Made by a program: the position numbers and the translations under genes. Shown here piece after piece: positions 3,514 through 23,485 of a DNA stretch of 41,951 nt. The notes under the pieces are model-generated. The model was not told the DNA's origin. It saw only the letters and a program-made list of their open reading frames with translations, and did no database searches. The stretch covers positions 1 through 41,951 of the forward strand of contig MU616791.1 of the NCBI GenBank assembly GCA_025201705.1, read 5' to 3'. Within the stretch, counting starts at the first letter, position 1. Every line of letters starts with the position of its first letter. This stretch comes from Dissophora ornata. Lineage: Eukaryota > Mortierellomycota > Mortierellomycetes > Mortierellales > Mortierellaceae.

Positions 3514-6500
3514 CTATGAGCGCATGGTTGGCTGAAGAGCTTGTCCTGCAACAAAGAACTCTTGTGGGATCGGGATTGGGAATGAGATGTACTGAGAGAT
3601 CAGCTGCCGCACGATCGAGATGCCTCTCTATCAGATTTTAGAAAAACAACGATTAAAATTACGTTTTGCAACAATTACGGATCTTTCTTTTTCTTTTTCT
3701 TTTCTCTTCTTTTTTTTTTTACCTCCAGAGCGTCAATGTCTCGTCCTTTCACCTGCTTGTCAACGAACCCCAGCGTCTTCCGCGTCGAGGTCTTGAAGAC
3801 ATCCAGAAAAGTCTCCTTCTGCCCCCCACCCACGAGCTGTTCACCATCATCTTGTTGCTGTTCCTCTTGTTCCTGAAGGAACAACAACGGAATCAGCAAC
3901 GGATCAATGTCAAACACATCGTCTTCTGCATCATCATCATCTTCATCCATATCTCTATCCTCCCCCTGCAACATCTTGCCCTCGTCACCACCAGATCTAC
4001 TACTACCCATGCGATCCAAGATCTTGGCAACTCTCTGGATCGCGAATGCGATGATAAGACACATCGTTTGCAGGATCTCGATCGCGTTGTCTGACTGTCG
4101 ATGATCTGTCTTCTCCACAACTGACAATGAAAAAGAGGAGGAGGACGGCGTGATCGAGGTTTGGAGCACAGTGTACTGATGCGCAAGCCGGTTGAATTTT
4201 TCCGCACAGCGATACAGTGCTACTTCATCGCCGGGTAACGCCAATGTCAGCGGTGTGGTGGCCGTTGTAGTAGAATGATGGTGAGAACGTTGACGCTCTG
4301 TTGAAAGACTTGTAGAGAGGAAATGGAGCGTTGCTACCGTCGACTGGCATATGTGGAGATAATTCCGGCGTAAACTACAGAACTGTATATGGAATGTTCG
4401 GTCCACTTGGTACGCTTCCAGTTCCTGGTAACAACACATACATAAAATGAGGTTAAGCTGGAAGAATACGCAAGCTGAGAATACACAAATCAAGAACAAA
4501 AGAAAAAAAGGATATGATACCTCAAGATACCCCACAACCTTGATATACATCTGCTGTTGCGAGTAAAGGTCCAACCGTCCATCATCACCCCTTTGCTTTC
4601 CTTCTTCCTGCTCTTCGTCCTTTTGCCTTCGACTATCAGACCCCACTGTCGCTGCGGTCTGCAGCGAACTCTCGATCAATGCTACCGTCTGCACCGTCAT
4701 CAGCCACAATGATGCCGAAACACTCGTCACGCATTTCTCTTGATTCCTGAACGCATTCAGCGCAAGGGATGACCAACCAGCCTGCAAAGAGTATCGCCCA
4801 ACTTGGTAGAGTTCCCAGTGGTTCTTTGTGAACCGCTCCAGCATGTCAACTTGACCGAAACGATCCAGAATTTGTGATACGCGCGATTCAAAGGCCATGG
4901 TAGCGGAACTGGAAGGAGTGGCATGATAAAGGACAGAGGATTCTAGAAGCACTCTGTAGACCAGGATCTGAATGTAAGCAGAAGCAGAAGCAGAAAGAGG
5001 AAAAAACATAAATCCCGAGTTAGAAGCTGTCTAGTATGATTACTACGATAATTAAGTTCACGCTGGTAAGAAATATCAGCTTACAAAGGTCTGGGTATCC
5101 GGAGAGTCGACGTTGTTCTCCAAGTAAGCCAGGATAACGTCCTGCATCGCGTACGCCTTCCTTGGTTGCTGCCGTGTAATATGCAGAAGTGCCTTTGCCA
5201 CTAACGCCGAGACATCTAAAGTTTTTTTTGTGTCAAGCACGTCGTGTTTAATTGACCTAATTCGCCCAACAAACACAGCAAAAACATACACTCGTGCCAA
5301 ACCGCGGTCGATGAGCAGCCTATCTCGCTCTTACCTTTGTAGGTGTCGACCCATTCCAAGAGAGTTTTCAATAATACATCTACACCCGACCCTTCTTCAA
5401 GTGTCAGCGTCACCAACGCCCACAGAATCCTCTTTGACTGACTAATATCCTCTTTCGACACCAAGATCCCGCCGTTGCTGTTGCCGTTGCTGTTGCTGTT
5501 GCCGGCTCCTTGGAGATCTCCATATCGAGACCACATCTTGACAAAGAATTGCTCCATTGACTGTGTCACAACCTTCACGGCCTCCTGGAAGGTCTTATCT
5601 GCTGTGCTCGAGAACCCTGCAGCCTCAGACCGCCTGTAATAGGGCAACATTACAGACAAGACTGCGTAACATTCTAGAACCACAAGTCGTGACGGCGACC
5701 AAGAAGGCAATAAAGATGATGACAAGGACGAGAAGGCACGTTCAAGGATGTGGAGGCTGGCCTGGATGTAGCTCTTCATAGTATCGGCGCCGGAATCCAC
5801 CAGGGAGATCGACGTCATAACGCCTGTCAGTCGAAAGATCTTGTCCAATGCCACCATTGCCCGAAGTGTTGTTCTTTCGTCCTTGGATTCTACAGCCACA
5901 TCGAAAATTGCCTACATAAAAGACACGACCACATTTTTTTTTCTTTCTCAGCTTGCTGCGCGACTCTTCTGGTATCAAGAGGAAAACCTAGAAAGGAGAA
6001 ACTCTTTTTTCGTTACCTTGATCTGCGCAGGACTGAATTCAATGCTCTTCTGCGCCAACAATCCTATGCACATCAACGCCACTCGCCGGATTCCGGGCTG
6101 CGCCTGTGTCTGGTCCTGCGCTCGCTGCAACAGTAATTCGATCTGCTGATCGACATCTACCAGTGAATGCGACGCTAGGCGGGTCAGTGTCCTCAGGATC
6201 GCGACCGTGTACTCTCCATCCTGATTCAATTCCAATATATCCACACATGTTTTCCTCGCCTAAGAAACCCCCCCGACAAAGAAACTTTAGCTCTCTATTC
6301 GTCATATTAACTTGAAAAAAATCGTCATGAGGAACCTGCAGCACAAAAGCATACCAGTCGAGCAAGAGTAATGTCTTCAAACATGTGTCCAAAGATCCGG
6401 ATCAGCCGCCTCTTGAGCGGCAGCGGTGTCTTTGTATCGCGAACCATGAACGCCAGCTTGCCAGAGATGATTGCGCAGAACCGTTGAGATTGAGCACAGA

Positions 6501-7309
6501 TCATGTCGGCAGCGTAGACTGCTGCGCTGACCTCCATTGCTTCCAATGAATCCAAAGAATGAATGACCCTGGTTGGATGGTCGGATAAGAGGTATATGAC
6601 TTTAGTTTTTCCTTGTTCTGAAAATTGACGCCAAGCATTTGGAACTGAAATTCCATCATCCCTTGAGAGAGAGTCCCTTACTTGTGATATACGTCGATAC
6701 GATCTGAGACGATTGTTGCCATGCATCCGAGAACTCTAGAATCAATCATCATTGACAGCTCATGAGCGACTCGTGGGTCTCGCCTCCGTATTCCTTAATA
6801 CTCTCGCCAATCCCGAACACTTACCGAAGCGTAATAGCACGCGCAAGTGGGTCATTGGACTGCAGCATGGGCGAGATACGCTTGATAGTTTCTTCCACGT
6901 TGATCACCTTATTCAGATGCTGATGACTCTTCTTAAACACCTGCAAGATAGCATGTCGCTGAATGTTGTTGCTTTTGTTGTTTGATGTTGTTGTTGTTTG
7001 ACAAAAAGAAAAAGAAAAGGCATGGAAGTTAGTGGTTGGTTGGTAGCCCTTGTCTTCTTACCCCGTTCCCTTGGATCTACGTCTATAACCTCCCCCAATT
7101 GCCATCATGCCGTTTTACCTATTGCGGAAATAATCTGCAAGCTTCAGGACAGCAGCGTTGATGATGACTGGGTATGGGCATTCGTCAAACAGGTGTGTAA
7201 ACGACGCGATCGCATGCAACTGGTCCGCTGTCCGCTGTGTCCTGTACTCTGTCTCGAGCTCTACCAGCCGTTTGAATCCAGCTTCGTCAGGGGCATTCCG
7301 TGGCGCCAT
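3514..7309 (-). CDS. INTS7: Integrator complex subunit 7 homologue (10 exons)
   Basis: INTS7 is an alpha-helical-repeat scaffold of Integrator, the nuclear complex that cleaves nascent RNA Pol II transcripts. Exons (minus): 7309-7119, 6971-6825, 6735-6682, 6568-6355, 6259-6017, 5911-5335, 5215-5085, 4967-4521, 4424-3723 and 3627-3514, giving about 939 aa; human INTS7 is 962. Conserved blocks in order: FDECPYPVIINAAVLKLADYF near residue 50, SNDPLARAITLR, HSLDSLEAMEVSAAVYAAD, TPLPLKRRLIRIFGHM, SLVDVDQQIELLLQ and FHIQFCSLRRNYL. A last exon carries IPIPQEFFVAGQALQPT, matching the human LSFQRYFFQKLQ region. The first ATG in frame is 7309. Without the final splice the frame would end at 3675 in a Lys-rich tail. 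The intron 4520-4425 is 96 nt with no in-frame stop. The long Ig-like C-terminal region of human INTS7 is not present. Some exon edges may be off by a base or two. Confidence 0.85.
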
Positions 7310-7522
7310 CGTTGAAATCTCCTTGACAAGAACAATACTATCACGACGCGCCGTTGTTTTCTTTCCCCTCTTGTAGCTATATCCCGGCGCTATTGTTGCT
7401 GATTCCAGAGAAAGACGGCGAATCCTTTTTCGTGAATCTTGATGGCGTTCTAATGCAGTTGCGGACAAAATAAAAGAGAGCAAAAACGCTCCTTCGCGTT
7501 TGGGTCACACAGCCGTTCACGT

Positions 7523-7774: not shown

Positions 7775-10357
7775 TTACATGTAGCGACCATTAAAGTGCC
7801 ATTCGGTGCTTCTGCTACCTTCATCAACATGGCTCCTGAGCGTGGGCTCGAGCATCCGCATGAACAACGCGCATACAGCCTCGTAGTTGCAACCCGAATC
7901 CATATAGACCGCTCCAAAGATACTCTCCATAATATCTGCGAGGACCTTTGATATTTTGCAGTCTTTCCAGTACTCGCCATCGGGGTGCGCAGATTTCTGT
8001 CTCGCTCTGATCAACGTAATTTCCGCATCGTCGATGATCTTGGTGACGATCGGGCTGTGGTATCGGATATGGCGATGAAGTCCATTGATGACACACAACG
8101 TCCCGAGCGTCACGTTGGTCACACTACGACGCTTCAATTCGATAGTCAGCTCAGTGCTTCTTCTCGGATAGCGCAGTGACCAGTAGTGAGCGGCGACCAC
8201 GTCCAATACGGCGTCGCCCAGAAACTCTAGCCTGTCGTAGCTAGGCTCTCCATAGCAAGCATTTGTCCGGGGGTGCAGTAGAGCTTCCATCAGTAGTCGC
8301 CTGTCCTCAAAGACATAACCAAGGATGGCTTCTACCATTTCAACCTCGCCGTTCTCTGGCACCGATACTGTTGTGGTTGGATCAGTTGCCAAAGACCGGG
8401 CGGTCCGGTACGCCTTTCCAAAGTCGCTCCACTCTTGGATACCTTGGAACGGCTCGAGATGGAGTGTTGCCGCAGACAAGGCCTTATCGAACCCACTCGA
8501 TAGAAAGCCTTGCCCAACGAGCTGCTTCAGACCTCTGCTCGTAATTTTCTTCAACCGATCGTCGCTCAGTTGAAATTCTCTAAACTGTGTGAGACTGTCC
8601 TCCTGCCAATCAGGCCACCGTATATAGAGATCCAGGGCTGAAAGGAACTTGAGAAACGCTCCACCAATAGCAACCACGTGTGGATTATTCATGAATCGTT
8701 TTTTGAAGTCATTTAGCCCTACCGGTACCGCCCCCTCGGCGTCCATTTCTATCTCCGTTTCTGTATACCAAGTGCGCTTCTTCCAGCTGAAACTTAGCGA
8801 CACTTTCTGTTGTGCTCCAAGACTAGAGGGGGTAGGGATGGGATGAGATATTACTAACCCTGGATACGGCGTGAGCGCCAAATCGGGTTTCGACTGCTCT
8901 GTCAGGATATTCAGGACCGGCAGGAACCTGTTGTCGAGGGCGCCCACGGAGTGGAGTTCCCTGCAGGCCTTGAACACCGCTGCGCGTCGTGCAAGAATCT
9001 CCCTTGAGAACCCACCAGAATAGAACTCCAGGATCGGAGCTCCAACTGGTAGGGTCAACCAACAATGCCAGACTGTTGGAGGGCCGGACTCGGCAATTTC
9101 GAACGTTGGCACAGACAGGGTATCGTTATGAGCCGTTAGTGAAGCGCAATAGACATAAAGAACCGATATCGCGGACCAAAACGTGAGCTGAGCTCCAGTT
9201 GCCTTAATCTCAAAGACTGAATCGACCTTGCTCAACTCATCCAGCTCGACTTCGTCGTGCTGGATTTCGTCGTCGTTATCGATATTCCAGTCCTCCAACT
9301 CTGGGATGATGTCGTCTAAAAAACTGCTGCACATGGCCCATGTATCTTGTTGTGATATTTCCTCGGGCTCCCATGGTATGATCCATGCAACGTTGTTGTG
9401 TCGTTGCCTCATAAGGAGCGCTATATCCATCGATGGCGTCATGATGCGAGCATCCAATGATCCCGCAGGCCTTCAGGAATCCATTCCCGTAAAAATAAGG
9501 ACGATACTATTAATAAAAACTAACGACAAATGACGCTGTAATATGTCTCCTTTGACCATAGTCGCGAACTTTACCTATCTCTGTTTGGCTCAGGCGCGAA
9601 CCACCCCAAGATTGGCTTGAAGCAATGGTCCTTTTTCATGTGATTCAGACAATTATCCGAGACGAACAGATATTGCTGATATTTCACAATGTGAGAAAAA
9701 AAGAAGAGAGAAGAAAGGCGATGAGCATACGCATTAAAGTCTGAAAAATCAAATCGCATGGACCAGTGTTTCCATTGAAGCTGATACCAACGCAAAGAGG
9801 CATCAGTTACTCACCACATCAACATTGACGGCTGGGCACTGCATAATGTTAACGAAAATCTCTGTCGTCATAACCACGACGTCAAAGAACGGCCGGACAC
9901 TGTCCCAGATCTGGACGTCATAAGTGTCGGGGTCTGTGATATCCACCAAGGTCTTGGCCCGGATATCGGTGTTGCTTATAATGTAAGCTTGTTGTAGATG
10001 GACCAGGGCGACACTTGGGACTATGTAGAAAGTCATCCTCGTCTATGAGTAAAGGGTGGTTAGGATGACAGGACCAGAATTTCAGCTCACTCGATTTCCA
10101 TCCTGCCATTGATTTTCGGCTACATTTTCGCGTTCTACCTTGGAGTTCCCCTCTCGAGCGTAACCGACAATGTCCTTTAGTATCATAAAGGACGCGACAG
10201 CGCCGTCACTGGAGGGGTTGGAAACGGCAATCACATTGACGGGAAACAAACTGCTTCCCACTTCCTCCAACTTGCTTGCTTCAACCATTGTGACATCGGC
10301 GCTGTGAGGACTGCTACTGCTGCTACTGTTTCTGGCGCTTATTGCGGCCTTTGTCAT
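7775..10357 (-). CDS. Compact Dicer-like protein: relic helicase, DUF283, dead RNase IIIa, intact RNase IIIb (4 exons)
   Basis: Exons (minus): 10357-10091, 10042-9815, 9675-9575 and 9470-7775, giving 763 aa; canonical fungal Dicers are roughly 1,400-1,600 aa. Residues 41-63 (NVIAVSNPSSDGAVASFMIL) align with the Dicer P-loop segment, but GSGKT is replaced by SSDGA. Motif Ia survives as IVPSVALVHLQQ, FFDVVVMTTEIFVNIM follows, and the DECH box reads DNCL at 172-175. The rest of the helicase core is absent. A Dicer dimerisation domain (DUF283) spans about 286-388. The RNase IIIa remnant, about 451-553, reads HVVAIGGAFLKF where ERLExLGDxFLKF is expected (Glu to Val 465, Asp to Gly 469), and its second metal-binding helix is missing. 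RNase IIIb (577-748) is complete: DRLEFLGDAVLD with E614 and D618, KVLADIMESIFGA with D711 and E714. No PAZ or dsRBD is seen. The exon D acceptor is the least certain join. Confidence 0.8.
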
Positions 10358-22209: not shown

Positions 22210-23367
22210 CTACTTGTATTTGGGCATGTCTATCTGTGCGATCTCCTTATATCGCAACAGACCATCCTTGTCGGGTTTCGCGCCCATTTCACATATCACC
22301 AACTTTTGCAACTCCACCTCAGCCCAAACCTCATCCCTCCACCTCTGCACCAGCTCTGTCGCGTCAATTTTTAATCTTTCCCTCCGTCTATTTGCGCCCG
22401 CATCCCAACTTCCTCCTCTACCTCTTCCTCCTCTACCTCTTCCTCCTCTACCTCTTTGACTCTCACTGTATCCTGCACGATCGTAACCACGACCACGGCC
22501 GCCTGCAATTGCGGTGTTTCGGACGTAAACAGTGTTCACGATGGTTGCGTGAAGTTTCAACGCGCGATCCTCTGGAATCACCAATTCAGCCTGCACAAAG
22601 GCTGCAACCAATGCTTCGCAGAACGGTTGCAATCGCCCAGTGGGATCGTGAGGTGCCGCATACAGGACCGTAGAGGCATCTAGCGACTCCATTGGTACAA
22701 GGCCTTGAAGTGTGACGATAAGTGGCTGGTTGGCATTAACAGCCTTGTCCTTGGTCGTAGTCATCGTGTTGTTTGATTGTATTGCTCCCTTCTCCGCGAG
22801 AGCCAACCTACCAACCGATGGTATCGACAGCGTTGGTATCGATAGCGTTGGCATCCACAGCGATGGCGGGGGACACTCCCCTCCACCCTCATAACTAGGG
22901 AGTGAGTCTCCATTGCTGCTGATAGCAGCTGCTTCCTTGAGCAAGGCGTTCAAATCCAACGACCTCAGGAACGACGCAGCATTTTCTAGCTGACCCGAGT
23001 CGGTCAAGCTCATCATACCAAGAGTCAGGTGCAAACTCGAGGGTGGCCTGAGGGAATCCCTTGGGAGGGGCGCCTTGATGATGTTTGTTCTCGGTTCTGG
23101 CGTTCTCCTGCTGCTGCCATCGCCCTTACTATCCTTGTCAGGCGCCGCTGCCGCCTCGAAAGCGCCCCGCTCTGCCATAGACAAACTACCAATTGCAGAT
23201 ACCAAGCTGTTACCAGGGGCATCGGGAGCGACATTGATAGTGGTGGTGGCTGTTACTTCGGCGGCGAATTGCGCAAGCGAGTTGTTCAAACGGCTAGCCG
23301 AGTGTGGCGTGTAAAGCGGTATCGCCAGGAAGTGCGTGAAAGGCGGCCTTCTCGGTAACGGTAACAT
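22210..23367 (-). CDS. ASCC1/AKAP7-like 2H phosphoesterase with RGG insert
   Basis: Single exon, 385 aa. The first ATG is at 23367; the frame is open for 20 codons upstream but only from a GTG. THFLAIPL near the N-terminus and two 2H catalytic motifs, HLT (H113, T115) and HAT in LKLHATIVNTVY (H273, T275), place it in the AKAP7/ASCC1 branch of 2H phosphoesterases. The C-terminal block WAEVELQKLVICEMGAKPD then YKEIAQIDMP is the usual ASCC1-type ending. ASCC1 works with the ASCC3 helicase complex in animals; the N-terminal KH domain of ASCC1 is not seen here. Odd features are an RGG/GRG-rich insert at about 289-331, a tandem PTLSI repeat, and two similar segments (IGSLSMAERGAFE and VGRLALAEKGAIQ). 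Substrate and partner are unknown. Confidence 0.8.
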   Translation of the reverse strand: MLPLPRRPPFTHFLAIPLYTPHSASRLNNSLAQFAAEVTATTTINVAPDAPGNSLVSAIGSLSMAERGAFEAAAAPDKDSKGDGSSRRTPEPRTNIIKAPLPRDSLRPPSSLHLTLGMMSLTDSGQLENAASFLRSLDLNALLKEAAAISSNGDSLPSYEGGGECPPPSLWMPTLSIPTLSIPSVGRLALAEKGAIQSNNTMTTTKDKAVNANQPLIVTLQGLVPMESLDASTVLYAAPHDPTGRLQPFCEALVAAFVQAELVIPEDRALKLHATIVNTVYVRNTAIAGGRGRGYDRAGYSESQRGRGGRGRGGRGRGGSWDAGANRRRERLKIDATELVQRWRDEVWAEVELQKLVICEMGAKPDKDGLLRYKEIAQIDMPKYK

Positions 23368-23485
23368 CGTCGTTGAATCAATCGTGAGCAATAAAGAGAG
23401 TTCAAAAAATGTGAGAGGCGGTGCCACCTGTTTTTCTCATCAGGTTGTGGTGGATGCTGATTCAAAATCCCACAAAGATGCTGTC

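Follow-up and report, generated by a model that had tools for sequence, protein, structure and literature searches.

A stripped-down Dicer paralogue with one intact RNase III site in Dissophora ornata

In a Dicer, the two RNase III domains of the chain normally dimerize with each other, and both strands of double-stranded RNA (dsRNA) are cut, one by each domain. What use may be left for a Dicer in which only one of these sites is alive and much of the remaining protein has disappeared? The question is raised by a gene of the soil fungus Dissophora ornata (Mortierellaceae), located within positions 1 to 41,951 of contig MU616791.1 (assembly GCA_025201705.1); the window, hereafter, is this whole stretch of DNA. 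The gene lies on the minus strand (10357–7775), and its four exons (Table 1) encode in one frame a protein of 763 amino acids (aa), which we call the mini-Dicer. An earlier reading based on the DNA letters alone (the sequence-only reading) had described the domain order of a Dicer (helicase lobe 1, DUF283, RNase IIIa, RNase IIIb), with four acidic residues complete in RNase IIIb only and with no visible PAZ, C-terminal helicase or dsRNA-binding domain (dsRBD). The gene model, Pfam and the alignment agree with this order, and the positions of the four acids are confirmed. The same layout recurs in four other fungal records, and together the five suggest a working enzyme that perhaps cuts only one strand of dsRNA.

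A search with the window protein as query yielded four further proteins of comparable size, from Mortierella sp. NVP85 (665 aa, a partial record), Benniella sp. (682 aa), Modicella reniformis (638 aa, also partial) and Mortierella sp. GBAus27b (646 aa). Local alignments with the window protein give identities of 36–39% (32–33% in the search listing), the NVP85 and Benniella proteins being 86% identical to each other. All five mini-Dicers match PF03368 (DUF283) and retain the four RNase IIIb acids. The NCBI name is 'hypothetical protein' or, for the NVP85 record, 'Dicer-like protein 2, partial', and no description of such a stripped Dicer was found in the open-access literature. Five members are a lower bound, as the profile search, which scored only the 7993 candidates sharing most words and did not return P0002–P0005, says nothing on absence elsewhere. 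Two further candidates, P0006 from Termitomyces and the metagenomic P0007, were rejected, both having by eye an intact RNase IIIa signature.

With E-values up to 1, Pfam matches the 763 aa of the window protein to Ribonuclease_3 (8.5e-21), Dicer_dimer (4.7e-16) and Ribonucleas_3_3 (2.9e-11), and to no helicase, PAZ or dsRBD family. The losses were followed in alignment A2, which joins the five mini-Dicers to 28 full Dicers (33 rows), the latter taken from a search with a full Dicer of which 120 of 351 matches were listed. Helicase lobe 1 turns out to be degenerate, a refinement of the original description, and has diverged beyond Pfam detection: motif I (GSGKT) has become NPSSDGA at 10199–10219 in exon 1 and is missing from all three mini-Dicers that reach it (the window gene, P0002 and P0003), while the DExH box is altered in every one of the five (DNCL in the window gene; DDCS, DDCS, DDCI and DDCL in the others). 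Motif III, VAEEG and QSRGRAR are found in none of them in this alignment. By comparison, ResIII, DEAD and Helicase_C are all matched in the full Dicers P0009 and P0011. Lobe 2 is absent from the five mini-Dicers, lobe 1 being separated from DUF283 by 98–124 residues as compared with 306–420 in full Dicers. Likewise, DUF283 and RNase IIIa stand 54–84 aa apart, against 355–463 in the 28 full Dicers, the PAZ/platform ruler having gone; in the structure model of the window protein this stretch is a low-confidence coil. After the last DxxE motif only 42–64 aa follow, instead of 132–233 in the 28 full Dicers, and the C-terminal dsRBD region is gone. No PF02170 (PAZ) and no dsRBD match was obtained in any of the five at E up to 1, Pfam alone being a weak test for either domain: among the two full Dicers of D. 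ornata, C304 and C399, and P0009 and P0011, PAZ is matched at 1e-3 to 1e-5 (below the Pfam cut-off) in three and unseen in C399, and a clear C-terminal dsRBD match is found only in P0011. As judged from the alignment, in which the spacings shrink relative to full Dicers, three whole blocks are missing: lobe 2, the PAZ/platform stretch and the dsRBD region. The spacings bear out the absences first reported; for the helicase, Pfam by itself shows the loss too. Hidden exons carrying lobe 2 or PAZ are unlikely, as none of the five proteins has more than a short stretch at these places, and no helicase or PAZ family is matched there.

Besides being mutated, as had been described, RNase IIIa is shortened, by about 45 residues in the window protein as compared with full Dicers. 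Its catalytic E is replaced in the mini-Dicers by V, I, I, G and T and its D by G, R, C, A and N, both residues being kept in 0/5 mini-Dicers and in 28/28 full Dicers. The second acidic pair is gone as well, the block that carries it being deleted in every mini-Dicer and present in all 28 full Dicers. RNase IIIb, by contrast, has its four acids in 33/33 rows, so that two tandem active RNase III domains, the usual Dicer criterion, are not found in the mini-Dicers. Among these, 47 of the 169 RNase IIIb columns are invariant, including the four acids (a chance of 0.005 if the acids were random columns). Mean pairwise identity is similar in DUF283 (54%), lobe 1 (53%) and RNase IIIb (51%), lower in the RNase IIIa remnant (40%, the least conserved domain, with 20 of 110 columns invariant) and lowest in the linkers (28–35%) and the short tail (15%). 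As far as these identities can be read, the mini-Dicers are under constraint at the protein level.

The gene model itself is supported in several ways. All three introns have GT donors and AG acceptors, in line with the four exons and single open frame of the sequence-only reading, and a 565-codon open frame has a chance of 2e-12 at this base composition. The NCBI model of the same gene (P0001, EDD21DRAFT_92820, 672 aa) is identical over residues 92–763 and therefore agrees with exons 2–4 as spliced. P0001 starts at the methionine of exon 2 and omits exon 1. The latter is nevertheless likely to be real, because its resemblance to the motif-I region of five full Dicers exceeds that of any of 1000 shuffles in each comparison; against the homologues reaching that far, shuffles scored as well in 0/1000 (P0002) and 4/1000 (P0003) cases. 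G+C content at third codon positions (GC3) is 0.59 in the mini-Dicer gene as in C304 and C399.

With Pfam and two mini-Dicer proteins as queries, five Dicer-derived loci were found in the D. ornata genome: C304, C399, the mini-Dicer gene, C501 and C171. Both RNase III sites are intact in C304 and C399, which are full Dicers, and the mini-Dicer is therefore an extra paralogue, of about half size. It is an addition in NVP85 too, since this strain has at least two full Dicers (P0011 and P0042) among the matches listed. In a tree on 602 columns, from which C171 and C501 were left out, the five mini-Dicers form one clade (100/100) that groups at 91/92 with the C304-type Dicers of Gamsiella, D. globulifera and NVP85. 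Such a nested position is the reverse of outgroup attraction, though the branches are long. On this phylogeny, the mini-Dicers descend from Dicers.

The two other shortened loci indicate that there is turnover of such copies in this genome. C501 (L025:3156-4444) has an RNase IIIa remnant and an RNase IIIb interrupted, as assembled, by a frameshift; sequence resembling the C-terminal part of full Dicers follows after a stop, and no DUF283 was found upstream. C171 (L024:2815-3780) is one open frame, again with an RNase IIIa remnant and RNase IIIb, and has a very long branch in a tree of the RNase III part; its RNase IIIb reads RLQYVGD in place of RLE.LGD, the first acid being changed from E to Q. 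GC3 is 0.49 in C501 and 0.53 in C171. A further candidate, C410, was rejected: next to its DUF283-like match (2e-8) lies an FHA domain (1e-12), and no RNase III turned up at this locus. PIWI-domain matches occur on five contigs (C400, C167, C935, C4 and C409), perhaps representing five Argonautes, and one locus for an RNA-dependent RNA polymerase (RdRP) was found. By these matches, an RNA interference (RNAi) setting is present in D. ornata.

How, then, could such a protein work? The interpretation that we favour, at a probability slightly below one half (about 0.45), is that a C304-type Dicer was duplicated within the Mortierellaceae and then stripped to DUF283 and RNase III, and that the RNase IIIa remnant would fold against RNase IIIb and act as its scaffold; the resulting pseudodimer, with one site, would be able to nick one strand of dsRNA. 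Indeed, the structure model places the remnant against RNase IIIb as in full Dicers, with a predicted local distance difference test score (pLDDT) mostly of 83–95, dipping to 54 at its start and to 65 near its middle. We infer nicking because RNase IIIa is kept but dead and RNase IIIb is intact in the five homologues, each RNase III domain of a Dicer cutting one strand. Human Dicer with a dead RNase IIIa is described as leaving a nick on one arm (PMC12700799). Without PAZ the enzyme would not measure from an end, without an ATPase it would not translocate, and without a dsRBD it would probably need a partner. Since its own ruler and C-terminal dsRBD are lost, DUF283 and the dead lobe 1 may now serve as surfaces on which other proteins dock, such as a dsRBD protein, an RdRP or a full Dicer; according to PMC7827160, partners are known to dock on DUF283 in plant Dicers. 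It is more tentative still to propose that some of the Mortierellaceae have made a natural, inherited dsRNA nickase out of a spare Dicer. With the dead RNase IIIa kept as its scaffold, such an enzyme would mark or open dsRNA through single-strand cuts rather than dice it, with two ordinary Dicers present beside it.

Several observations weigh against the one-site pseudodimer and its proposed origin. A tree of the RNase III domains only, based on a shorter alignment that included C171 and C501, did not unite the five mini-Dicers, their clade appearing in 34% of bootstrap trees; it kept them beside the same full Dicers, with long branches and an unsure placement of C171 and C501. In every domain, moreover, evolution is faster in the mini-Dicers than in full Dicers, five of the latter having mean pairwise identities of 70% in lobe 1, 68% in RNase IIIb, 62% in DUF283 and 55% in RNase IIIa, and 88 invariant columns out of 169 in RNase IIIb as against 47. 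The modelling concerned single chains only, 28 of the 33 rows in the alignment behind the pseudodimer were full Dicers, and a control with the five mini-Dicers alone reached a pLDDT of 43, too poor to inform. Finally, conserved acids show constraint, not substrate, and R3B2 of Mucor illustrates how an RNase III domain can switch to single-stranded RNA as its substrate (PMC8072676).

Alternatively, two chains might pair through RNase IIIb and cut both strands, as one-domain RNase III enzymes such as bacterial RNase III and budding-yeast Dcr1 do, the RNase IIIa remnant being vestigial. We regard this homodimer, which the sequence-only reading had named first, as unlikely: the remnant is kept in all five records and would compete for the same face of RNase IIIb, and there is no dsRBD to hold the RNA. 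The conserved columns of the remnant, together with its modelled position, make the homodimer appear less likely than an intramolecular pseudodimer, bearing in mind that the model leans on the full Dicers in its alignment; what stands of the earlier interpretation is the stripped Dicer paralogue with one living site. The conservation of DUF283 and lobe 1, which equals that of RNase IIIb even with the ATPase motifs gone, would suit a regulator or partner of a full Dicer that docks through these two domains or competes for dsRNA, its RNase IIIb activity being secondary, and a truncated Dicer of Caenorhabditis elegans, sDCR-1, is described as modulating RNAi partly without catalysis (PMC4141963). 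Yet a pure competitor would not need the four RNase IIIb acids kept in all five proteins, and we consider this role rather improbable.

It is doubtful, too, that the mini-Dicer is a counterpart of R3B2, an RNase III protein whose degradation of RdRP-marked transcripts is independent of Dicer. R3B2 also has one RNase III domain, dimerizes and acts with RdRPs (PMC8072676), and D. ornata has its RdRP locus; R3B2, however, is described with an altered signature and two dsRBDs (PMC4395119), whereas the mini-Dicer has a canonical RNase IIIb signature and no dsRBD match, and groups inside Dicers. A relaxed or decaying gene without function can hardly be credited, even if the frameshift in C501, the E-to-Q change in C171 and the faster evolution of the mini-Dicers would point that way. 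Five open records share the layout and losses with an intact RNase IIIb site, and the GC3 of the window gene is that of full Dicers, above the values of C501 and C171. The earlier opinion that the gene is not dead is thereby strengthened, and the homologues, as far as examined, have the stripped layout themselves, which makes a decaying pseudogene unlikely.

Table 1. Features of the mini-Dicer gene, in window coordinates
Feature	Coordinates	Strand	Protein residues and remarks
Exon 1	10091..10357	-	aa 1-89; start of degenerate helicase lobe 1; gene model and similarity to full Dicers
Exon 2	9815..10042	-	aa 90-165; helicase lobe 1; P0001 identical from residue 92
Exon 3	9575..9675	-	aa 166-199; DExH box degenerated to DNCL at 9646-9657
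Exon 4	7775..9470	-	aa 199-763 and stop; disordered linker, DUF283, linker, RNase IIIa remnant, RNase IIIb
DUF283 / Dicer dimerisation domain	8915..9172	-	aa 299-384; PF03368
RNase IIIa remnant	8384..8713	-	aa 452-561; without catalytic acids, second acidic block deleted
RNase IIIb	7829..8335	-	aa 578-746; PF00636; four acids intact
RNase IIIb acids	E614 8225-8227; D618 8213-8215; D711 7934-7936; E714 7925-7927	-	gene model and alignment

Elsewhere in the window, pieces of an Integrator complex subunit 7-like gene (6328-7504, minus strand; INTS7_N 5e-17, and 3e-10 just under the Pfam cut-off) adjoin the mini-Dicer gene in the same direction, and a protein with an AKAP7 2'5' RNA ligase-like domain (3e-24) is encoded at 22213-23436, also on the minus strand.

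If true, a conserved paralogue with a single live site next to two normal Dicers would be the natural equivalent of the one-site mutants of human Dicer; it would tell which parts of Dicer still serve a purpose when no dicing takes place, and a step of RNA processing in early-diverging fungi may come to light. A survey published in 2025, covering 1592 fungal proteomes, is described as requiring two tandem RNase III domains at a domain threshold of 1e-3 (PMC12663654). Pfam finds one RNase III stretch per mini-Dicer in four of the five, and a second stretch in P0001 only at the threshold of E 1; the mini-Dicers would consequently fall outside that set unless the second match were stronger than is visible here. 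The D. ornata Dcl1 named in the same survey (KAF8931068.1) has a recognizable PAZ and is therefore not the mini-Dicer gene. Surveys that demand two detectable RNase III domains are likely to miss proteins of this type, and similar ones may hide elsewhere.

Among known systems, the closest are the C304-type full Dicers (C304 itself and P0009–P0034), phylogenetic neighbours that share DUF283, the domain order, the RNase IIIb signature and the lobe 1 sequence, but have both helicase lobes, a weak PAZ match, both catalytic sites and the long extension past the RNase IIIb acids. Mucor R3B2 likewise belongs to an early-diverging fungus, where its role is in the RdRP pathway (non-canonical RNAi); it is reported to cut only single-stranded RNA (PMC4395119, PMC8072676) and differs from the mini-Dicer, which has DUF283 and a Dicer-derived RNase IIIa remnant. 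Shortened Dicers without helicase are represented by sDCR-1 and human Dicer1e (PMC4141963), whereas the mini-Dicer comes from a gene of its own and has DUF283 and one living site. The Dicers of Giardia, Trypanosoma, Entamoeba and budding yeast have also lost helicase and/or PAZ (PMC7827160), yet serve as the Dicer of their organism, while the mini-Dicer coexists with two full Dicers and has neither a PAZ nor a dsRBD match. Budding-yeast Dcr1 and class I RNase III combine a single RNase III domain with a dsRBD, unlike the mini-Dicer with its remnant and DUF283. The human DICER1 mutant D1320A, altered in RNase IIIa, resembles it in having one dead and one live site per chain and gives a nicked product (PMC12700799); that protein, however, is a laboratory mutant with all other domains in place, whereas the mini-Dicer is the natural state in five fungal records.
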